36,199 nucleotides of DNA from Thermoplasmatota archaeon (GTDB lineage: Archaea > Thermoplasmatota > Penumbrarchaeia > Penumbrarchaeales > Penumbrarchaeaceae), in assembly GCA_016928095.1 (NCBI GenBank), contig JAFGLL010000073.1, positions 1-36,199 on the forward strand. The letters are read 5' to 3'. The notes below the pieces were generated by a model. The model was given only the letters and a program-made list of their open reading frames with translations, ran no database searches and was not told the origin of the DNA. Shown here one piece after another: positions 930-35,510 of the stretch; position 1 is the first letter of the stretch, and each line of letters begins with the position of its first letter. The position numbers and the translations under genes were made by a program.

Positions 930-1727
930 CTACCGATCATTCTTGAGATGGGGGCCATTTGTCACTATTTCCAGTGTATCCTCAAACGTTTCATATTCGT
1001 TCAGGCAAACCTCCTCAACTTTCAGAGTCTTGAAAAAACTCTTGACATAGGCATTATCATATGGATTTCCTTTCCTACTATTGCTGATCTGGATGCCATG
1101 GTTTCTAAGGCATTCAGTGAACCTCATCGAGGTATACTGGACACCCCTGTCTGAATGATGGATCAAACCGGAAATGTTCTGGTCACGTCGATTGTACAAA
1201 GCCATCTGAAGTGCATCCAATGCAGAGTCAGTGTCCAGATCCCTGCTCAACGACCATCCGATCACTCTTCTTCCATACAGGTCCATTTCAACAGCTAGGT
1301 AGATATATTCGTTCCTCAATTGAACATATGTGAAGTCTGCTCCCCAGACCTGGTTGGGACGGGTGATCTCCATTCTCCTGATCAGATTCGGATAGAATGG
1401 ATTACCATGTTCAGAGTCAGTTGTGATCGATCTGAATCTGCTCTTTCTGAATGTCAATTTCGCTTCTCTCATCAATCGGAGTACCCGTTTGTGATTGACG
1501 ATTAAGCCATGTCTTCTGAGCTCGTATGTAACTCGACGATATCCATAACCAGGATACTCGTGGATGATTTTACTGATCTGTTCCAGCACTGGTTTATCTC
1601 TACATCTTCTGGGATCGTGTCCTTTCCGCTTGAGCCAATCGTAATACCCGCTCTTGCTGACATCAAGTAGATCCGCTGCTGTTTTGACCTGGATCCTGTA
1701 TGGGTCCCTCTGATTTTTCCAGATCAT
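930..1727 (-). pseudogene. IS3-family transposase OrfB, catalytic Glu lost and C-terminus truncated
   Basis: This 265-residue protein has the N-terminal HTH_21-like region of IS3 OrfB and an integrase core (rve). The first catalytic Asp is in WGADFTYV and the second in HHSDRGVQYTS. The third acidic residue should be the Glu of the family motif YDNAxxESFFxTLK. Here it reads YDNAYVKSFFKTLK, a GAG-to-AAG change that removes the DDE glutamate. The family's usual end, a segment resembling YNxxRLHSALGY, is missing: after FEDTLEIV the protein continues only about 10 unrelated residues to a stop. The ATG overlaps the orfA stop as ATGA. The protein is very unlikely to catalyse transposition. Confidence 0.85.
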
Positions 1728-4743: not shown

Positions 4744-5826
4744 ATGGATGACAGGGAGATAGGGGACCATCTAAGCTCGGGCATCATTGATCTGATGGAT
4801 AGGGCATCCAGCATTCTGACGGAGTATTCCGAAACGAGACCCGAATGGGTCTTCGAACTGATCTCTCACCAGGTGTCCGCAGCCGGGAGAAGGAAGAAAC
4901 TCGACGATGATGGTGTCCATGTTCCTGCCTTCATGATAATATCGGTAACAAGAGAATGCAACCTCAACTGCAGAGGATGTTATGCCAGGAAGCTTCATTC
5001 CGACGTGGCCGCCGAGATGGACGACGGACTTCTGAGGAGCGTCCTGGAGCAGTGTAAAGAGCTCGGCGTCTCCATCGTCCTGACAGCCGGGGGGGAGCCT
5101 CTCCTGAGGCCCGGTCTCGTAGGGATCCTCAAGGAGTTCCCCGAGATCATTTTCCCCGTCTTCACGAACGGGTTGCTTCTGAATGAAAGTATGATCGAGG
5201 AGATCAGGGACGCCCGGAACATAGTACCGGTCCTCAGCATGGAAGGGTTCGAGGAGGAGACCGATCTCAGGAGGGGGGACGGCGTCTTCAGAAATCTCCG
5301 GAGAGTGATCCCCGCACTTTCTTCTTTGGGGATCTTTTGGGGGATCTCGGTGACCGTGACCTCGAAGAACAACGAGGTCGTGACCGGAAAGGGGTTCGTC
5401 GATGAGCTGATAAGTAATGGATGCAGACTTTTCTTCTACGTCGAGTACATCCCCATCGAAGAAGAAACCGACCATATCGCACCTACCCTCGAGCAGAGGA
5501 ACGATCTGATCAGGTTGATGAGCGTTTTCAAGGCCGATCATCCCGGGTTGTTCATAACGTTCCCGGGTGATGAGGAAAGACTTGGAGGATGTCTCTCTTC
5601 GGGCAGGGGTTTCGTTCATGTCGATCCATCGGGCAGACTGGAGCCCTGTCCGTTCGCTCCTTATTCGGATAGGAACCTGCGTGATGTCCCCCTCAAGGAA
5701 GCCCTCGGGTCCGAGCTGCTTGCAAATATCCGACAGAACCACGATATGCTCGAAGGGACCCGAGGTGGATGCACCCTGTGGAAGAACCGGGAGTGGGTCA
5801 AGGGGCTTCTTGACAAACGAGGATGA
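4744..5826 (+). CDS. Radical SAM protein with partial SPASM-like C-terminus
   Basis: This 360-residue protein has a TIM-barrel radical SAM core. The [4Fe-4S] motif CNLNCRGC uses C72, C76 and C79, followed by the SAM-binding GGEP (TAGGEPLLR). The C-terminal third has CLSSGRGFVHVDPSGRLEPCPF and a final GGC near residue 343. This resembles a shortened SPASM/twitch auxiliary-cluster region with the typical P-[SD]-G-x-L-x-PC turn. The N-terminal 60 residues are helical and unassigned. No precursor peptide gene adjoins it. A class I methyltransferase follows 96 bases downstream. It could be a peptide- or cofactor-modifying enzyme; the substrate is unknown. Confidence 0.85.
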   Translation: MDDREIGDHLSSGIIDLMDRASSILTEYSETRPEWVFELISHQVSAAGRRKKLDDDGVHVPAFMIISVTRECNLNCRGCYARKLHSDVAAEMDDGLLRSVLEQCKELGVSIVLTAGGEPLLRPGLVGILKEFPEIIFPVFTNGLLLNESMIEEIRDARNIVPVLSMEGFEEETDLRRGDGVFRNLRRVIPALSSLGIFWGISVTVTSKNNEVVTGKGFVDELISNGCRLFFYVEYIPIEEETDHIAPTLEQRNDLIRLMSVFKADHPGLFITFPGDEERLGGCLSSGRGFVHVDPSGRLEPCPFAPYSDRNLRDVPLKEALGSELLANIRQNHDMLEGTRGGCTLWKNREWVKGLLDKRG

Positions 5827-5922: not shown

Positions 5923-6603
5923 ATGGCCGGAGTGCAGCCAGAGGACATACAGAAAGTGCAGGCAGGATGGTTCAGGGAATGGCAGAGGTATCTGATCAGG
6001 ACCTACTGCGGGGACTGCACCACCGGTCTCGAGGTCGGGTGCGGTTCTGGAATGGTGATGGAGAACCTCTCTGACATACTTGAGGTCAAAGGCATTGACC
6101 TTGACCCCGCAGAGGTGGGGAATGCAAGGAAGAGAGGCATGGATGTGATCGAGGGCGACGGGGGAAAACTCCCCTTCGCGGACGGAAGCTTCGATCTCGT
6201 ATATTCCAGCTTCCTGTTCATCTGGGATCCCGATATGGCTAGGGTCATCAACGAGATGATCAGGGTTGCACGCAGGAATGTGTGCATACTTGGCGAGCCG
6301 GTATGGAACCGTGCTATCGTCCATCCGTCCGATCTATCCTCCCTTGTACAATATGAGAGGGATATCTTAATGGAGGAAGGGGGGAACCCGGAAGCCGGAA
6401 TGGACCTTCTGGACCTTATCTCCGGCATGGGTCTCAAGCATCGGTTCGGACTGATACCCCTTGACACCTCTCCGGAGGAGATGAGAAGATGGGTAAGCCT
6501 CGAGCGGGAATACACCGTAAAGCACGGGAGGGTCCTTGACGACCTCCCTCCCACACTTTTCTACATCCCTATGGTCTGGTCTGTCATCGACATCTCACGA
6601 TGA
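5923..6603 (+). CDS. Class I SAM-dependent methyltransferase
   Basis: This 226-residue protein has the Methyltransf_11 fold. Motif I is GLEVGCGSGMVMENL (about residues 34-48), motif II is the acidic GIDLDP, and motif III is GDGGKLPFADGSFDLVYSSFLFIWDPD. The C-terminal half carries no recognisable substrate domain. It is widely related to UbiE/arsenite/small-molecule methyltransferases, so substrate assignment is not safe. Its 3' end overlaps the convergent radical SAM/SPASM gene by 9 bases. The flanking radical SAM genes make a role in a modification pathway possible, but the convergent orientation argues against co-transcription with the 6595 gene. Confidence 0.85.
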   Translation: MAGVQPEDIQKVQAGWFREWQRYLIRTYCGDCTTGLEVGCGSGMVMENLSDILEVKGIDLDPAEVGNARKRGMDVIEGDGGKLPFADGSFDLVYSSFLFIWDPDMARVINEMIRVARRNVCILGEPVWNRAIVHPSDLSSLVQYERDILMEEGGNPEAGMDLLDLISGMGLKHRFGLIPLDTSPEEMRRWVSLEREYTVKHGRVLDDLPPTLFYIPMVWSVIDISR

Positions 6604-7920
6604 GAGCACGTTCATGCAGGTGTATTCTCCGGACCTCCATGAGAGGGGGCAGCCCCCCCCGCAAACAGCCAGCAGGTCGCATTCGCTGCAATCTTTCGGG
6701 AGGTCACCCCTCTCCCTGATGTTTCTGCAAAGCTCGCTGTTCCAGATATCCTTCCAGCTGTCCTTGAGGATGTTCCCCACCGGCTCGTAATAGCTCTGAC
6801 ATGGGATCACGGAGCCGTCCGGCTCCACGGCCATGTTCAGCCTGCAGGCCGAGCACTGTCGGATACCCAAACCCAGTGCCATGGGGTTCAGCTTGCAGTA
6901 AGGGGTCGGGGAATACCATCTGAACTCGAACCCCGACAACCTTCCCATGTCCCTGCCTTTCTCGAGTTTGGAGCAAAGTTCGGCAGGTTCCAGACCCTTG
7001 GTGGTCTTTCCCTTGCCCGACCTTATCAGGGAATTCACGGCTATATGCTTCACACCAAGGTCCCGGAGGAAAGAGATGGTATCCAGAACGGTCTGCTTGT
7101 TCTCTTCCATGATGGTGGTGTTGGTCACGAGATATATCCCGGCATCCAGGCAGTTCCTCACTGCCTGAACGGTCTCCCTGTGGGAGCCCTTGGCCTGCGT
7201 TATCCTCTCATGGACCCCTTCATCGTGCGAGGCCAGGGTTACCTGGACATGGTCCAGGCCTGCATCCATCAGCCTTTTAAGATATTTGCTGTCCTTCAGC
7301 TTCCTGCCGTTTGTGTTGAGCCCGGTGATCTGACCGAGACCTTCCGCATGTGCGATCAGGTCCGGCAGGTCCTCCCTCAGGGTGGGCTCCCCTCCTGTGA
7401 ATATTATATGGGGTATTCCAAGGTCCCAGAGCTTTTTTAGCACCTTCTTCCACTGATCGGTGGAAAGCTCCTTCTTATCCTTCGTCTCGTTGTAGCAGTG
7501 GATGCAGTCGTTGGAGCACCTGTAGGTCAGTGCCAGGTCCATGCGGTAAGGGGCCTTCTGTCCCTCGTACAATCTGGAAAGGTCATCCTCCATGTTCGAA
7601 ATGACCTCTTCGGAGGCCAAGGCCTCCTGGAATTCGCTCTTGAACATTTCCAGGTCCGATCTTACCTGCTCCTTCTTTACCCTGTAGATACCCCGGATGC
7701 GTTTCACGATGGTCTCGTCGTCCAGACCCTCCAGCATCAGGTAGCTGAACTCTATCCCGGTCCTGTTCAGGATGAGCATCTTGGATGCGTCAAGTATGAG
7801 CACTCCCTTATCGGGCGAGTCCACCCGAAGGTGTATCTTTCTTCCCTCGAGCCTTCCCTTGCCGAGGAAGTGATATACACCGGGTTTGACGAGCTTCTTT
7901 CTGAGGAACTCGAGCATCAT
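6595..7920 (-). CDS. Radical SAM/SPASM maturase with N-terminal PqqD-like domain
   Basis: This 441-residue enzyme has three parts. Residues about 30-98 form a PqqD-like peptide-recognition domain (ILNRTGIEFSYLMLEG, then a helix and EQVRSDLEMF). The radical SAM core starts at YRCSNDCIHCYNE with C135, C139 and C142 and carries the SAM motif FTGGEPTLR. A full SPASM domain has cysteines at about 356, 359, 374, 398, 411, 414, 420, 424 and 435, including EPDGSVIPC and CSECDLLAVCGGGC, enough for two auxiliary clusters. Known enzymes with this order modify ribosomally made peptides (PqqE, sactisynthase/ranthipeptide and related families). The ATG overlaps the stop of the upstream (Cys-Ala)6-tailed membrane protein by 4 bases, so that protein is the prime substrate candidate. 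Confidence 0.92.
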   Translation of the reverse strand: MMLEFLRKKLVKPGVYHFLGKGRLEGRKIHLRVDSPDKGVLILDASKMLILNRTGIEFSYLMLEGLDDETIVKRIRGIYRVKKEQVRSDLEMFKSEFQEALASEEVISNMEDDLSRLYEGQKAPYRMDLALTYRCSNDCIHCYNETKDKKELSTDQWKKVLKKLWDLGIPHIIFTGGEPTLREDLPDLIAHAEGLGQITGLNTNGRKLKDSKYLKRLMDAGLDHVQVTLASHDEGVHERITQAKGSHRETVQAVRNCLDAGIYLVTNTTIMEENKQTVLDTISFLRDLGVKHIAVNSLIRSGKGKTTKGLEPAELCSKLEKGRDMGRLSGFEFRWYSPTPYCKLNPMALGLGIRQCSACRLNMAVEPDGSVIPCQSYYEPVGNILKDSWKDIWNSELCRNIRERGDLPKDCSECDLLAVCGGGCPLSWRSGEYTCMNVLSS

Positions 7921-9566
7921 CTACCACCCCCCGCACAAGCGCACGCGCATGCGCAAGCACAGGCACATCCACCGCCACTGAAGCCTCCGGACCTCCCCCC
8001 ACTCCCTCCGGAAGGGGCGGGATGGAGGGTGTTCACAATGGAATGGGTCAGCCTGGTCGTGCTTGAGACCACGTTCTTGCTTAGGCTGTTAATGTTATTG
8101 ACATAAGACCTGGCGAAGCTCCCTGCCCCCAAAACGGCACCTCCTGAGCCGTGTGATGCACCTCCCGGGCCATGTGATGGATGATGTATGAATACCGGGA
8201 ACACCAGGATGTCCATCCTCCGGTCATAGTCGTCAGCCAGGGCGAGCCATTCATCCTTCTGCCTCAGGACCGCCTCCATAGCATCAGGATCAGCAGTGCT
8301 TCTTACCTCCTCCCATGCCCGATCGACTATGTTCCGGTAGAGCTGCTGCGTCTTCCTCTGGCTGAACCCGTCCATCTTCTTTTCGGTGAGCTTGATCATA
8401 CTTGTCAGTGCCTTCTCAAGCTGCGTCTTGTTAAAGGTCCCATCGGATTCTATCGAATCGAAAACGTCCTTCTCATACTGTTCGGTGAGAAGCCCTCCAT
8501 CGATCCATCCGAACCTCACAGGGTCCTGGGACGACTGGACTATGGCCCCCTTCTTGATCATACCATAGAGCACGAAGGCGAGGACCCTGTTCAGAGGAAG
8601 CTCCAGCACCATCGCCGCCTCGGGTGCGGTCAGGCCGGTCCTCGGCGGTCCGCTCGGAATTCTAACGGTTGGCCTGAAATAGTCCTTGCTCTTCCTGGCC
8701 GAAAAATAGATGGCAATGGCAACTATGGATACCCCGAAGAGGACAGGGAACAGGACAGGGAGCAGGAGGCACAGGAGCGCGAATACGGCAATGAACAGAT
8801 CCGCTATATCCATCCAGATGGTCTGTTCCCAGACCTTGTCAACATACTGCCGGTCGAAGGCAACACCCACATCGCAACTACCGCTGCTGATCGTCCCCGG
8901 TGATCTTTCCCCCCAGTGCCATGTGAGCTTCCATCCCTCCCCGGTCAGGGTACAAGCGTCCCACTCCCTGTTGTGCCAGGCAGTGTAGTTCAGGTCGGGG
9001 ACCGTCTGTGGAAGCACTATATGGACAGTAAGATCACCGGTATTCCCCCTCTGAAGATCGGCATCGAACCATGTTGGTCGGAACTCGACGCTTGCCATGT
9101 TCTCGTTCTCGGGGCTCTCCCATACCATCCTGTCGCAGACAATGGAGAACTCAACGACCACCCGATGGTCCGACCCCGCATTCATGTGGGCCTCTACCCC
9201 GGGGTCCACATACTCGGATCTTCGTATATCCGAAATGTCCTGATCCTTGATGATCGACCCGCCCACCGAGTATGTGGTGACATGAGCGCTGGCGGTGGAC
9301 AGTATGTAATATTTATTGGGCATCCCGACATCGACCACATCCAGTCCGCTGCCAAAATTAATGAAGTCGAAGGTATAGCTTATGAGAGCTTTCCCGTCTG
9401 TCCGGACCGACACCGTCACCTCTTCCCTGTCCAGAGAGAAATCGTAATCAGCCGCATTCGCACGTGACGGGACAGCATATATGAGAAAACCGGTCACTAA
9501 TATCAGAAGGAGGCAGATGATAAAAGGTCTTACCCTGTTCCCCGCTCCCTTCTCGAAACCGAACAT
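7917..9566 (-). CDS. DUF2207-like membrane protein ending in a (Cys-Ala)6 tail
   Basis: This 549-residue protein has a signal peptide (FIICLLLILVTGFLIYAV, cleavage near SRANA-A). A DUF2207-type extracytoplasmic beta domain spans about residues 40-245, followed by a hydrophobic hairpin or long TM at about 253-290 ending in the basic SARKSKDYFR. The cytoplasmic part has a winged-helix-like segment (LTAPEAAMVLELPLNRVLAFVLYGMIKKGAI) and helices. A Gly/Ser/His-rich linker leads to GGG-(CA)x6-GGGR at the very C-terminus. The Ala codons are GCC, GCT, GCA, GCG, GCT, GCG and the Cys codons mix TGT and TGC, so the repeat is kept at protein level. I prefer ATG 9566, which has AGGTG 6 bases upstream, over a GTG at 9575. 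It is followed with ATGA overlap by the radical SAM/SPASM gene. Inferred role: membrane-bound carrier of a modified Cys tail. Confidence 0.88.
   Translation of the reverse strand: MFGFEKGAGNRVRPFIICLLLILVTGFLIYAVPSRANAADYDFSLDREEVTVSVRTDGKALISYTFDFINFGSGLDVVDVGMPNKYYILSTASAHVTTYSVGGSIIKDQDISDIRRSEYVDPGVEAHMNAGSDHRVVVEFSIVCDRMVWESPENENMASVEFRPTWFDADLQRGNTGDLTVHIVLPQTVPDLNYTAWHNREWDACTLTGEGWKLTWHWGERSPGTISSGSCDVGVAFDRQYVDKVWEQTIWMDIADLFIAVFALLCLLLPVLFPVLFGVSIVAIAIYFSARKSKDYFRPTVRIPSGPPRTGLTAPEAAMVLELPLNRVLAFVLYGMIKKGAIVQSSQDPVRFGWIDGGLLTEQYEKDVFDSIESDGTFNKTQLEKALTSMIKLTEKKMDGFSQRKTQQLYRNIVDRAWEEVRSTADPDAMEAVLRQKDEWLALADDYDRRMDILVFPVFIHHPSHGPGGASHGSGGAVLGAGSFARSYVNNINSLSKNVVSSTTRLTHSIVNTLHPAPSGGSGGRSGGFSGGGCACACACACACAGGGR
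7921..7968 (-). repeat. Codons of the C-terminal Gly-rich (Cys-Ala)6 tail
   Basis: On the minus strand this block encodes GGG, six Cys-Ala dipeptides, GGG and Arg just before TGA. The six repeats use four different Ala codons and two Cys codons, unlike a slipped microsatellite. The tail lies next to the start codon of the putative maturase. Confidence 0.9.
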
Positions 9567-9575
9567 ATTGCACAC

Positions 9576-9965
9576 CTACCATTTTGGTTTCTCTTCCATA
9601 GTATAGACCTGATCGCAGTAAGGGCACTTCACAATCATTCCCATATCGGTGAACTTCACATCCTTCGTTTCCAGACCCGCACCGCAATTGTGGCATTTCA
9701 GCTTCTCCAACGACCTGTCCCCCCCTACAAGGTCCTCTCCTTTGATCTCGATCTTCTGTTCTATCCTAACATCCGGAGGCTTCTCCCCCTTCGATACAAC
9801 GATGACGATGACCAGCGGAGCAATACCAAGTAGGAACAGAAAGATGAACTGTATGATCAGGAATGCGGGAAAACCGGATGTCGACAATGCAAGGAACCAT
9901 ATGGCAGAAAGGATGAGGAAGAAAACTCCAAACGATATCAGAACGACCTTCAACCATGTCCTCAT
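9576..9965 (-). CDS. Small membrane protein with C-terminal zinc ribbon
   Basis: This 129-residue protein starts with two TM segments (about residues 7-29 and 33-56), followed by a cytoplasmic region. A zinc-ribbon follows with CHNC near residues 91-94 and CPYC near 114-117, 19 residues apart between knuckles. It is first in a minus-strand operon: its TAG stop lies directly at the start of the DUF2207-like gene, with a TATA-like box at 9988-9998. The start ATG is only about 28 bases from that box, so the mRNA is probably leaderless. I do not recognise a named family. Co-transcription suggests it works with the Cys-Ala tailed protein and its radical SAM partner, perhaps as an assembly or scaffold subunit. 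Confidence 0.8.
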   Translation of the reverse strand: MRTWLKVVLISFGVFFLILSAIWFLALSTSGFPAFLIIQFIFLFLLGIAPLVIVIVVSKGEKPPDVRIEQKIEIKGEDLVGGDRSLEKLKCHNCGAGLETKDVKFTDMGMIVKCPYCDQVYTMEEKPKW

Positions 9966-31003: not shown

Positions 31004-31043
31004 TACCAATACCATGGACCCCGGTCAGACTTATACGGGACCT

Positions 31044-34000
31044 ATGAATTTCGTATGGCGGGTGTTTCACTTGAATACCATGAGATCATTACACGGGGAT
31101 CGTCGAATATTTGCCTTCCCCATCCTTTTAATGGTCCTGCTTCCGATGGTCATTACCTTCCCGGCAGGTATATCCTTGAAACCTCTGGCATCGTTCGAGA
31201 CGGTGGATGTGCCCATGAACCTTCTGCACGATGTGAGGTCCATCGGTGACTTCGACAGGGACGGCTTCATCGACATCATCATGACCATGCCGACAAATGC
31301 GACCAACGGTCCGGATTCGGGCGTGGTGTTCCTGTTCTGGGGGAGCAAGGATGGGTTCCCTGCACTCGAACCCTACAATGCTGACCTGGTGATCACGGGT
31401 GAAGAGGGCTTCCTTCTGGGACAGAGTGTGGTGGCATGGGACTATGCTGGAGATACCTGGCCTGACCTTGTTATCGGCTGCCCGGGCGCACTTGGAGGGA
31501 CCGGTAAGCTGCTTGTTTACGAATCATCCGATATAAATATCGCGGTCAAGGGGACGATCCTGGACCCATCCCAGGCAGTATTCGAGATAGCAGGGAACGA
31601 TACATATCTCTTCGGATCGCATCTCGAGGTGGGTGACATGACCGGGGATGGGGTCGATGACCTTATGGTACTGTCGATGAGGAGCGGCACGACCCTTCCC
31701 AGGTTCGAGATGTTCTCGGGAGGAGTGCTCCCCGATTTCGGCTACGAGATAGAGCTTCCTCAGAACAGCGTGAAGAACAACACAAGGACCGCCTCGCTCG
31801 ATCTTTACGGGACAGGAAGGGACGCCTTCATCTTTTCCTCTCCGGACAACGGAGAGCTAAGGATCATCAACATCGAGGTCTCGGACACTCCCTTCTTCCT
31901 CCCCGGAGCGAACGTTACCGGGGTGGTCGATCTCCAGGGGAGCATAGCGACCTCGGGTAACACCTGGGGGTGGGGGGCAGGGGATGATGGGTGGGACACC
32001 TCACCCACCCACATTTATGATAGCGCCACGGGATATGATTCGGTAAGGTACAATGAAGCAACGGGGAACGCCAACAATGCGAACAGGTCCATAGGGGTGG
32101 AGAACAAGCTGTTCATCGAGGTGGGGGGTATCCTGACCACCAGCAACGAAAGGGACATGTCAGGAGCTTACGGGGTTTCCTTCCGGCTCTTACCATCGAA
32201 TATCAACGGGATCAATTCAGCGATCCTATCCTTCGACTGGGAATACGAGGACTGGGGTTTCGAATCCCAGGAGCGGCTCTGGATCAAAGCCAGATTGACC
32301 GGTTCCTCGGGGTCCATGACCTATCTTGGGAGCGGGATGGATAGGAACCCGGAACCGGACCTGACCCCGGAAATATTCACAATGCCGGGTCAGACCACCA
32401 GCAACGGACCGAACCTGTTCGGCACAGGCTCCTTCCAGACCGATATCCTGCAACTGATCGACGGTCCGGGTGAATATTATCTCGATATGGGCGGCAAGAT
32501 CTCGAGATGGACCGCAAGCTCCGAGTTCGGGGGTTTTGGCTTTGATAACATAACCCTCACCTTCAGGACACTTTCCCACGATATAAAGACCCTGACGGGA
32601 TCAGGCGGCCTTGGGTCAGGACTGCTCTCTGCTGATTGCGACAGGGATGGGCAGGAAGACCTTATGGTCGGTTCTCCCACCCAGGGGACGGTGAGGATAT
32701 TCAGGGGCGGCCAGCCATACTGGGTCCAACTCGCCGGTATCAATCAGGGGATGTGCAATACGACCATCACGGGTACTCCGAACTCGGGGATCGGGACATC
32801 CATGGCGAGGCTAGGAACATCTCCCTTCAACCTTGTCCCCTCGATAGCGATAGCAGCACCATTGGACTATATCGGACCCGGGTCCCTGGGGCGGATCTAT
32901 GTGTTCGACCTTCCAATTCCGGATGGCGAATTGGCTGTCGCTTCTGCAAGGGAGGTCAACGACGCACCGGAGGATTTCAACAACTATGGATGGCGCGTGA
33001 TATCGGTAGAGGACCACGATGGCAACCTGTACCCTGAGCTTCTCGTGCTCTCCTGGACATGGTCGGGCCATCTGAGAACCACACTTGTGGACAGGTCCCC
33101 AACACCCCCGAAGCTATGGATACTGACCCCCAAACGGCATGAGACCGTTTCCGGTCATGTCAACATCAGTGCAAGGGTGTTCGATATCGACAAGGATGCC
33201 AAAGTGGAGGACGTCAGGTTCTACCGCTCCAGCGACAATAGGTCCTGGAACCCCATAGGCGACGGTTCCCCTGACAGTGTGGAGGGTGATGTGGCCGTCA
33301 AATTCTGGAACACAACACTGTTCGCCAACGGTGGCTACTTCTTCAAGGTCAGTATCATCGACAGTTTCGGACTTGAAACGGCCATGTACACCGATAGGGT
33401 CGATGTTCTCAACCATGCGCCACCATTCGTGAAGCTGATATATCCAGCGGACCTGACGGAGCTAAGATGGGTGGAGGATATAACCGCGAAGGTCATCATC
33501 CCCTCCTCCGAGGAGCTTGACCCGCCCGTGAGGTTCTACTATTCCCGCGATAATATCACATGGACGGAATATGCTAACAGGTCCGCGCCGATCGATGGGG
33601 CCACCTCGGATTACATGGCGGAGTTCGACACGGAACCTCTGATGGATGGACCCATCTGGTTCATGGTCAACGCAAGCACCCGGTATGGACTCGGGTCCGG
33701 TTCAAGGAACATTGCACCGGCGTTCATAAACAATTACTATCCTCCCCAGGGCGAGATCCTCAGGCCGTTCCCCGGTTCGACCATCTCGGGGGCCTTCATC
33801 GTTACGGTCAGCACCCAGGACCAGGACGATGATGTGATATCGCCTCTGCAACTTTTCGTGAGGCAGACCGATGTGGAGACCTGGGACCTGCTTGGCAACA
33901 TGACCGGAGGCCAGAACGGCACCTTCACCTTCGAGTGGGACACCACACTGCTCGATAACGGGGAATACGACCTCATGGCAAGGGTGGTGGACTCGACGAA

Positions 34001-35510
34001 TCTGCAGGTCGAACTGATGCTGGACGAACCGGTCACCATACACAACCTCTACGAGCCTGCAGTAACGATCACCAGCCACACGGGTGGTGATTCCCTCACC
34101 GGCCTGGTGACCTTCACCGCGGTGGTGACGGACCGTGATATGAACATCCGGGAGAGCGATATCAGGTTCCTCTACAGGCCACAGGGGGTCGATATCTGGA
34201 ACTCCATGGGAAGGACGTTCCTTCTCGGCACCCTCGTCCAGGTCAACTGGGATTCGACCACAGTGAAGAACGGCCTCATTGATGTCAGGGTAGAAGTGAC
34301 GGACCAGGACAACCTCACAGGGATGCACCAGATATCCGACGTCCGCGTGAAGAACATTTACGGACCAAAGCTTCAGACGAACCTCCCGTCGTTCAATCTG
34401 CCCCTATCAGGGGTCGTGAGGCTTTCTTTCAACGTCTCGGATGACGAGCCGGTCCCACCGGCCAATATCAAGGTCGAAGTACTTGTCAGGACCACCTGGG
34501 TAGTTATCGACAATGTCAGCAGGACCGATCCGGGTGGAGCGTTCGTGCCCGATCAATGGACCTTGTACTACGTTGATTGGAACACGGCGGAGAGGGACGG
34601 TTCCGGCGATCGAATGTTCCCGGATTCACTGGGATATGATGTAAAGGTGACCGTGACCGACTCGGACGGCGAGATGATCGAATACATCACACCTGTTGCA
34701 TATCATGTTCGCAATGAGGGGATCGAGGGGGACGATGACGACGATGGACAGGCACTCTTCCTCGAAGGATGGATGATCGCCGTCATCGTGATCGTCATCA
34801 TCCTTCTGTTCATACTCATCCTGCTGATATTCATGTTCAGGGGGGATCGGAAGATCAAGGAACCCGTACCCAAGGTCAGTGTTCCTCAGGTGACAGCTAT
34901 CCCGGCGAGCCATCCAACTTCGCTCGAACCTCTGACACCGGTCGAGAAGAGGGAGGGAGGGATCTACTCACCGCCCGGGTGGGAGCCGTCCACTGTGACT
35001 GCTCCAGCGGAGGATATACCCCTGTTCATGGCCGGCTCGGAGACGGTTGACCTGGGTATCGACCTGGACCTCGAGCAGGACAAGGATGAGGAAGACCTGA
35101 CGGACCTCAGGGACGAGCTGTTCGGACAGAGAAAAGAGAGAAAGCCAAAGAGACCTGCCATCAAGAGGACACGGCAGGTCAGGGCCCCCGTCATCGAGGA
35201 GACCGTGGATATAATGCTTCCGGAAGGTGTGGTCCCGCCTTCGATCGCTCAGAGAGGGACCGAAGCGGGTCCGGAGGAGGAATGGGGGGAGACCGAAGAA
35301 TGGGGTGAGGACGAGGACTGGGAGGAGCTTGACGAGGAGGAGCTCGAAGAGCTTGACGAGGAGGAATGGGAGGATGTGGATGAGGAACCTAAGGAGGACC
35401 TCATCATCACCTGCAAATGCGGGGAGAAGATAGAGATACCGTCCGTGTTCAAAGGGACCAAGTTCAGATGCCCGCAGTGCGGAAGGAAAGGTTCGATCCC
35501 CGGCAGATGA
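31044..35510 (+). CDS. Giant single-pass surface protein, FG-GAP and Ig-like, cytosolic zinc ribbon
   Basis: This protein has about 1488 residues. After a signal peptide (FAFPILLMVLLPMVITFPAG) come FG-GAP beta-propeller repeats with Ca-binding loops (GDFDRDGFIDIIMT, GDMTGDGVDDLMVL, DCDRDGQEDLMVG). A jelly-roll-like region follows (about 300-510), then five Ig-like domains that start near SPTPPKLWILTPKRHETVSG. One TM follows (MIAVIVIVIILLFILILLIF). The cytoplasmic tail of about 220 residues is Pro/Glu/Asp-rich, with repeated EEW/EELDEEE runs. It ends in a four-Cys zinc ribbon (CKCGEKI ... CPQCGRKG). An ATG at 31014 lies too close to the TATA at 30994; I prefer ATG 31044, and 31080 is possible. 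Likely an adhesion or signalling surface protein; partner unknown. Confidence 0.85.
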   Translation: MNFVWRVFHLNTMRSLHGDRRIFAFPILLMVLLPMVITFPAGISLKPLASFETVDVPMNLLHDVRSIGDFDRDGFIDIIMTMPTNATNGPDSGVVFLFWGSKDGFPALEPYNADLVITGEEGFLLGQSVVAWDYAGDTWPDLVIGCPGALGGTGKLLVYESSDINIAVKGTILDPSQAVFEIAGNDTYLFGSHLEVGDMTGDGVDDLMVLSMRSGTTLPRFEMFSGGVLPDFGYEIELPQNSVKNNTRTASLDLYGTGRDAFIFSSPDNGELRIINIEVSDTPFFLPGANVTGVVDLQGSIATSGNTWGWGAGDDGWDTSPTHIYDSATGYDSVRYNEATGNANNANRSIGVENKLFIEVGGILTTSNERDMSGAYGVSFRLLPSNINGINSAILSFDWEYEDWGFESQERLWIKARLTGSSGSMTYLGSGMDRNPEPDLTPEIFTMPGQTTSNGPNLFGTGSFQTDILQLIDGPGEYYLDMGGKISRWTASSEFGGFGFDNITLTFRTLSHDIKTLTGSGGLGSGLLSADCDRDGQEDLMVGSPTQGTVRIFRGGQPYWVQLAGINQGMCNTTITGTPNSGIGTSMARLGTSPFNLVPSIAIAAPLDYIGPGSLGRIYVFDLPIPDGELAVASAREVNDAPEDFNNYGWRVISVEDHDGNLYPELLVLSWTWSGHLRTTLVDRSPTPPKLWILTPKRHETVSGHVNISARVFDIDKDAKVEDVRFYRSSDNRSWNPIGDGSPDSVEGDVAVKFWNTTLFANGGYFFKVSIIDSFGLETAMYTDRVDVLNHAPPFVKLIYPADLTELRWVEDITAKVIIPSSEELDPPVRFYYSRDNITWTEYANRSAPIDGATSDYMAEFDTEPLMDGPIWFMVNASTRYGLGSGSRNIAPAFINNYYPPQGEILRPFPGSTISGAFIVTVSTQDQDDDVISPLQLFVRQTDVETWDLLGNMTGGQNGTFTFEWDTTLLDNGEYDLMARVVDSTNLQVELMLDEPVTIHNLYEPAVTITSHTGGDSLTGLVTFTAVVTDRDMNIRESDIRFLYRPQGVDIWNSMGRTFLLGTLVQVNWDSTTVKNGLIDVRVEVTDQDNLTGMHQISDVRVKNIYGPKLQTNLPSFNLPLSGVVRLSFNVSDDEPVPPANIKVEVLVRTTWVVIDNVSRTDPGGAFVPDQWTLYYVDWNTAERDGSGDRMFPDSLGYDVKVTVTDSDGEMIEYITPVAYHVRNEGIEGDDDDDGQALFLEGWMIAVIVIVIILLFILILLIFMFRGDRKIKEPVPKVSVPQVTAIPASHPTSLEPLTPVEKREGGIYSPPGWEPSTVTAPAEDIPLFMAGSETVDLGIDLDLEQDKDEEDLTDLRDELFGQRKERKPKRPAIKRTRQVRAPVIEETVDIMLPEGVVPPSIAQRGTEAGPEEEWGETEEWGEDEDWEELDEEELEELDEEEWEDVDEEPKEDLIITCKCGEKIEIPSVFKGTKFRCPQCGRKGSIPGR

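Follow-up and report, generated by a model that had tools for sequence, protein, structure and literature searches.

Genes at the locus and anatomy of the two proteins

The window analyzed here is a stretch of 36,199 nucleotides from a Thermoplasmatota archaeon (contig JAFGLL010000073.1). On its reverse strand, two adjoining genes encode a membrane protein with a C-terminal repeat of alternating cysteine and alanine and a radical S-adenosylmethionine (SAM) enzyme of the SPASM type, and the relation between these two proteins is the subject of this report. Their features, together with the two flanking genes, are collected in Table 1. The open reading frame (ORF) of the membrane protein terminates in GFSGGG-CACACACACACA-GGGR followed by the stop codon, with exactly six CA units that are written in the window as TGT GCC TGT GCT TGC GCA TGC GCG TGC GCT TGT GCG. 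Its stop and the ATG of the enzyme gene overlap by 4 nt, the enzyme start lying inside the stop codon. Both the tail and the overlap had been described in an earlier note on this DNA and were found again in the two ORFs. The gene end at 9566 given there corresponds to an internal ATG, whereas the mechanical ORF start is the GTG at 9575. No second (CA)4 site was found in the genome of the window (2.8 Mb, 96% complete).

In the members of the family examined, hydropathy and the positive-inside rule predict a signal segment, an exterior domain, one transmembrane (TM) segment and a cytosolic C-terminus, marginal hydrophobic stretches aside. This agrees with the cytosolic location of the tail proposed in the earlier note. 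The AlphaFold2 (AF2) model of the membrane protein has a beta-rich exterior domain, a TM helix at residues 253-294 and a further helix at residues 484-517. The exterior domain is retained in every clade, including the divergent lineages f17 and G035 described below; a Foldseek search related it to the beta-sandwich domains of M1 aminopeptidases and ribophorin I, which is taken as a lead only. It is noted that in one genome (G086, L042:6393-8039) a single TGA breaks the frame of the tail protein and the adjoining enzyme gene is intact, which could reflect a sequencing error, a pseudogene or recoding.

In the window enzyme, Pfam recognizes Radical_SAM (E 5e-29) and SPASM (E 8e-12). Nine cysteines lie between residues 356 and 435, and seven of them are invariant in 19/19 homologues; SPASM is matched by all 19, with the last cysteine (435) missing in six. 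The CxxxCxxC motif, the SPASM region and its nine cysteines, all named in the earlier note, are thus present as described. The N-terminal part is assigned to the PqqD-like type known as the recognition element (RRE) of ribosomally synthesized and post-translationally modified peptides (RiPPs), on the basis of PqqD matches in relatives of the enzyme (up to E 6e-6), the pattern of strands followed by three helices in the AF2 model, fold matches to SkfB and SuiB, and the match of a lasso PqqD model to the G035 homologue. SkfB is also the best sequence match in the PDB. The best Foldseek matches of the enzyme model include SuiB, PqqE and SkfB, with the sactisynthase structure 5wgg lower down. Two more specific identities were rejected: PQQ_syn_pqqE is the best NCBIfam model (E 6e-39), but its 134 bits compare with a cut-off of 381, and heme-type radical SAM models score far under their NCBIfam cut-offs. 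In another genome (G004, L036:6717-7994) the enzyme terminates early, after CGGGCPL, without the last SPASM cysteine, and the same genome is without the methyltransferase described below.

Table 1. Coordinates of the gene pair, its parts and the flanking genes in the window (pLDDT, predicted local distance difference test).
Feature	Position	Strand	Basis
Tail-bearing membrane protein, 552 aa	7917-9575	-	ORF; start GTG 9575, alternative internal ATG 9566
Exterior beta-rich domain, residues 43-250	8826-9449	-	AF2 strands, block pLDDT about 56-85
Transmembrane stretch, residues 251-294, then basic residues (positive-inside)	8694-8825	-	Hydropathy and flanking charge, all members
Short helical cytosolic part, possibly winged-helix-like, residues 317-341	8553-8627	-	Region matching TIGR04222/DUF2207 profiles; low-confidence model
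Conserved helical segment before linker, residues 487-520	8016-8117	-	Alignment A2
Tail (Cys-Ala)6-Gly-Gly-Gly-Arg, residues 537-552	7920-7967	-	100% identical, 15 loci
Radical SAM/SPASM enzyme, 441 aa, N-terminal PqqD/RRE-like domain	6595-7920	-	Pfam, NCBIfam, AF2 and Foldseek
RRE/PqqD-like domain, residues 1-102, strands then three helices	7615-7920	-	AF2 block pLDDT about 57-89
CxxxCxxC radical SAM cluster motif, residues 135-142	7495-7518	-	Kept in 19/19 homologues
SPASM region, Cys 356-435	6616-6855	-	Pfam SPASM
Small membrane protein, two hydrophobic stretches, C-terminal CxxC...CPYC zinc ribbon, end PKW	9576-9965	-	Upstream cassette gene
Class-I SAM methyltransferase, convergent to enzyme gene, 9-nt overlap	5923-6603	+	Methyltransf_11 E 8e-17

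Selection on the tail

The 16-residue tail is identical at 16/16 positions in 15 loci of the main clade. Among 13 aligned members of the membrane family (alignment A2), mean pairwise identity is 100% in the tail, compared to 43% in the exterior domain, 29% in the TM segment, 48% in the cytosolic domain and 45% in the Gly/Ser linker, and no other segment of the protein nears the invariance of the tail. Residues 487-520, ahead of the linker, have 41% mean pairwise identity in the same alignment versus 27% in the preceding stretch. At the codon level, the 15 tails differ pairwise in 58% of third positions versus 1.6% of first and second positions, where only the Arg codons vary. This bears out the protein-level selection that the earlier note had read from the variety of codons within the single repeat. 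The number of repeats is constant, in contrast to a drifting repeat. A chance repeat or one maintained at the DNA level is ruled out by the identical residues, the free synonymous codons and the zero count of a reversed-pattern control. Tail length is thus conserved throughout the 15 main-clade loci, but it differs in the variants of families f43 and f17.

Distribution and coupling of tail and enzyme

The in-depth survey covered 390 genomes of the phylum to which the window belongs. A pattern search for CACACACAGG, i.e. (CA)4GG, was positive in 18 genomes from 12 genera; the reversed pattern was found in 0/390. With an enzyme profile built from 19 sequences (A1), 20 genomes were detected, all at E <= 1.1e-163, and relaxing the threshold to 1e-75 added none. 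Eighteen of these 20 are the pattern-positive genomes, and the other two belong to family f43, whose (CA)4-G-(CA)3 tails escape the pattern. A membrane protein with a Cys-Ala tail is adjacent at every one of the 20 enzyme loci, so the pairing seen in the window holds throughout the survey. The same 20 genomes would be found by chance with a probability of about 1e-33 if the two genes were independent, a figure that shared descent makes illustrative only. The profile of the membrane family detected 22 genomes: 20 carry the enzyme, one (G043) is cut by the end of the contig, and the remaining one is G035.

Further homologues came from a scan of genome contigs, which reaches close relatives and found two DHVE2-group archaea with 62% identical enzymes, and from a search for relatives, which found enzyme homologues at 82%, 61% and 47% identity. 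The identical tail, CACACACACACAGGGR, adjoins the enzyme in all of them. In viral contigs, the (CA)4GG matches were rejected as Cys-rich frames unlike the tail proteins, and the enzyme profile matched nothing closer than distant radical SAM proteins (<=39% identity). A tblastn search of plasmids gave PqqE and other matches below 60% identity with the enzyme and nothing relevant with a tail protein.

Divergent tails accompany divergent enzymes. In f43 (two genomes) the tail is (CA)4-G-(CA)3-GGGR. In f17 (four genomes, L031-L034) the enzyme is 36-38% identical to that of the window and the gene order is reversed. The f17 membrane protein keeps the exterior domain and the TM segment, but its helical cytosolic part is replaced by two Zn_ribbon_TFIIB domains (PF13453, E about 1e-20), and it terminates near SCACVSCACVSSCACACACAGGGAAGCAPK followed by a short run, a version of the tail with nine cysteines. 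Since gene order and cytosolic domain are altered in f17 and both tail and enzyme are kept, the pair stays linked while the middle of the protein changes. The fused TFIIB-type zinc ribbons look as if the separate zinc-ribbon partner of other loci had been built in.

G035 (family f24, L120:4560-7242) has a 439-aa membrane protein without a Cys tail, followed in the same order by a 459-aa enzyme homologue. All three cysteines of CxxxCxxC and all SPASM cysteines but one are gone from this homologue, which retains the RRE-like domain (lasso PqqD model E 5e-6) and the similarity in the barrel. Joint loss of the putative substrate cysteines and the predicted catalytic cysteines is a prediction of the hypothesis that the enzyme is the maturase of the tail. 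The G035 homologue is possibly a pseudoenzyme kept beside its former substrate, and a natural control is at hand in this pair, which has neither substrate nor catalytic cysteines.

Other genes of the cassette and other features of the window

The small zinc-ribbon protein is encoded directly upstream of the tail protein in 13/13 main-clade loci whose contig extends far enough, as well as in both loci of f43, with a conserved E-x-PKW end. A methyltransferase homologue adjoins the enzyme in all main-clade loci except G004; in both f43 loci it lies downstream of the enzyme on the same strand. Neither protein was matched in f17 or G035 at the E-value used, and the core of the cassette therefore consists of the tail protein and the enzyme. 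The two-gene pairing of the earlier note was right as far as it went; it had missed the zinc-ribbon and methyltransferase genes as well as the TIGR04222/MNIO precedent discussed below. No further gene family is common to most of the compared loci as a candidate dedicated protease or peptide exporter; an ABC ATPase family occurs in seven, its place not fixed. For the methyltransferase and the zinc ribbon, the NCBIfam models DVU_1556 and DVU_1557, both associated with the Trs seleno-radical-SAM system, are top or near-top. The scores are far below cut-off, so that a Trs connection is a possible but weak link and was kept as a lead only.

Elsewhere in the window, a second radical SAM protein of 360 aa (4744-5826, +) is partly similar to NirJ/AhbD-type models, is without a PqqD-like part, and was not found as a shared neighbour in the homologous loci. 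A 1498-aa surface-type protein (31014-35510, +) has a C-terminal TM segment and a cytosolic zinc-ribbon-like end (CKCGEKIEIP...CPQCGRKGSIPGR). The ORF at 930-1727 (-) is presumably an IS3-type transposase OrfB, judging from its sequence pattern.

Relation to known families

The closest precedent is provided by the TIGR04222 proteins with Cys tails encoded beside MNIO enzymes, to which the present family is weakly related. The tails of TIGR04222 membrane proteins are of low complexity, contain Cys and are placed in the periplasm; the proteins often stand beside MNIO (DUF692) enzymes and have been proposed as MNIO substrates (PMC12452194). The NCBIfam model TIGR04222 matches 5/13 members of our family weakly (best 25.3 bits, E 1e-5, below the curated cut-off of 43), and the similarity of the profiles is juxtamembrane. 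Both groups are membrane proteins with a C-terminal low-complexity Cys-containing region, rich in Gly/Ser/Cys, encoded beside a peptide-modifying metalloenzyme. However, the enzyme here is an RRE-radical SAM/SPASM protein, and the tail is a strict (CA)6GGGR, predicted to be cytosolic, instead of varied and Cys-rich. No Pfam match to the MNIO family was found among the cassette proteins scanned, the constant neighbour being the radical SAM enzyme.

No Pfam family covers any of the 13 members. The description of the membrane protein as DUF2207-like in the earlier note may hold as a distant similarity between profiles but not as membership of DUF2207 (PF09972), which has no Pfam match in G000 or in the 13 members. 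A profile-profile comparison (hhalign) with 12 DUF2207 proteins of the phylum gave a probability of 94% over the TM and cytosolic parts, and one with YciQ alone 1.5%. The aligned order of TM segment, basic boundary and helical cytosolic domain is the same, as is a Gly-rich tail ending in AGGR within the same phylum: 10/12 of these DUF2207 proteins (L144-L155) have Gly-rich, Cys-free C-termini, most of them ending in AGGR. They differ from the tail protein in the lack of cysteines, and no close enzyme homologue was found at their loci within the stretches scanned. The AGGR end resembles the CAGGGR end of the Cys-Ala tail, and a shared end of this type may be a recognition signal. It is likely that the Gly-rich tail of a DUF2207-type protein became a Cys-Ala tail as a radical SAM maturase was recruited.

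The enzyme itself resembles the sactisynthases AlbA, SkfB, CteB and StsB in its combination of RRE, radical SAM and SPASM parts, in a Cys-rich substrate candidate, and in sequence and fold. The substrates of sactisynthases are short leader-core peptides, whereas the candidate here is the 552-aa membrane protein. QhpD, the radical SAM thioether maturase of quinohemoprotein amine dehydrogenase, acts on a protein subunit (PMC8172795). It provides a parallel for cysteines cross-linked inside a functional protein that is kept and not released as a peptide, although QhpD forms Cys-Asp/Glu links in a small soluble subunit and does not act on a membrane protein with a C-terminal Cys-Ala repeat. Thioether links onto Ala and Gly also have precedents among sactipeptides, in the sactionine to Ala25 of Trn-beta and in a Cys31-Gly34 link (PMC8172795). 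With PqqE/PqqD the enzyme shares its best NCBIfam model and the PqqD-like domain, which is fused here; no PqqA-like peptide was identified. A literature search found no paper on the tail motif or on DUF2207 with radical SAM.

Proposed maturation of the tail and alternatives

Considering the anatomy of the two proteins, the invariance of the tail, the one-to-one adjacency and the one correlated loss, all of them observed directly, we propose that the enzyme is probably a dedicated, RRE-guided radical SAM/SPASM maturase with the cytosolic C-terminal tail of the membrane protein as its substrate. That the enzyme acts on the tail, as the earlier note had suggested, is very probable in view of the adjacency at 20/20 loci and the loss in G035. 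There is good reason to expect that the modified tail is retained on the membrane protein. For the chemistry, thioether bonds from Cys to Ala or Gly carbons are put forward tentatively, at close to even chances, by analogy with characterized enzymes.

In the proposed sequence of events, the two genes would be translated together, and the signal and TM segments would insert the membrane protein with its tail left in the cytosol. The PqqD-like domain of the enzyme would dock on this protein, possibly at the conserved helix before the Gly/Ser linker. A 5'-deoxyadenosyl radical formed at the radical SAM cluster would then take hydrogen from the repeat, the SPASM clusters would hold the tail thiols, and coupling would most likely join Cys sulfur to carbon as a thioether onto Ala or Gly. 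The modified tail would remain attached, and the zinc-ribbon protein and the methyltransferase may assist or modify it further.

Several points weigh against this proposal. The PqqD match of the window enzyme itself is under the Pfam cut-off (E 0.0016). The AF2 models are shallow because they were built from the window, L004 and L005 sequences only (mean pLDDT 56 for the enzyme, of which the N-terminus is the better part, and 50 for the membrane protein), and the C-terminal parts of both are unreliable. The helix of residues 487-520 is possibly the docking site, but it is a guessed candidate. The bond type is not readable from sequence. Finally, the correlated loss is known from one lineage and one genome, G035, which is 88% complete.

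The most serious alternative keeps the same enzyme and tail but assigns another chemistry in place of alpha-carbon thioethers: Ala or Cys might be epimerised, carbon-carbon links or beta-carbon thioethers might be formed, or the tail might be altered in some other way. We consider this a realistic possibility, at rather less than even chances. The matched radical SAM/SPASM enzymes hold carbon-carbon formers (PqqE, SuiB) as well as thioether formers, and no residues other than Cys, Ala, Gly and Arg are available in the tail. However, the i,i+2 spacing of the cysteines is kept in most variant units, and in the f17 units CACVSCACVSS it is Cys that persists rather than Ala, which points to sulfur as the reacting group.

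It is improbable that the tail is a bare, unmodified thiol array serving as metal or redox ligand, with the enzyme acting elsewhere on the membrane protein or on the zinc-ribbon partner. Alternating cysteines can bind metals, and a zinc-ribbon protein is a constant neighbour or, in f17, zinc ribbons are fused. Yet f17 keeps tail and enzyme without a separate partner and with a different cytosolic domain, and neither the correlated loss in G035 nor the invariance of the tail, unmatched by other segments, fits this explanation. A conventional RiPP operon, in which cleavage would turn the modified tail into a small peptide for release or export, is also hard to credit and is judged slightly less probable still. 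Both the RRE enzyme and the core-like C-terminus are characteristic of RiPPs. On the other hand, no candidate protease or exporter family is shared across most of the compared loci; in place of the small leader-core precursor of sactipeptides there would be a membrane protein of >500 aa whose exterior domain is conserved; the GGGR end shows no variation up to its final residue; and the nearest apparent relatives, the DUF2207 proteins, keep their Gly-rich AGGR-ending tails. That the tail is a tether or an electron or cluster donor which holds or activates the enzyme at the membrane, and not its substrate, would equally give the one-to-one adjacency and the correlated loss, but it is very improbable because SPASM sites and a maturase-typical peptide-binding domain belong to the enzyme itself, and in G035 the cysteine-less homologue still stands beside the tail-less protein, so that the association does not need the tail.

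If the tail is indeed matured by the enzyme, it could become a permanently tethered, cross-linked cysteine ribbon which, coupled to the exterior domain, senses metals, sulfur or redox state, a role that we suggest with some reservation. The cross-linked Cys array or metal site raised in the earlier note is likewise a hypothesis. Most RRE-bearing radical SAM/SPASM maturases act on short peptides. The substrate candidate here is the end of an integral membrane protein, of unusually simple sequence and invariant across many archaeal families, and the system would represent a RiPP analogue bound to the membrane, its modified core serving as a functional part of the protein that carries it. Together with the TIGR04222/MNIO pairs, it suggests the recruitment of unrelated enzymes for decorating the Cys tails that related membrane proteins carry, and the DUF2207/TIGR04222 group could thereby gain a testable function.

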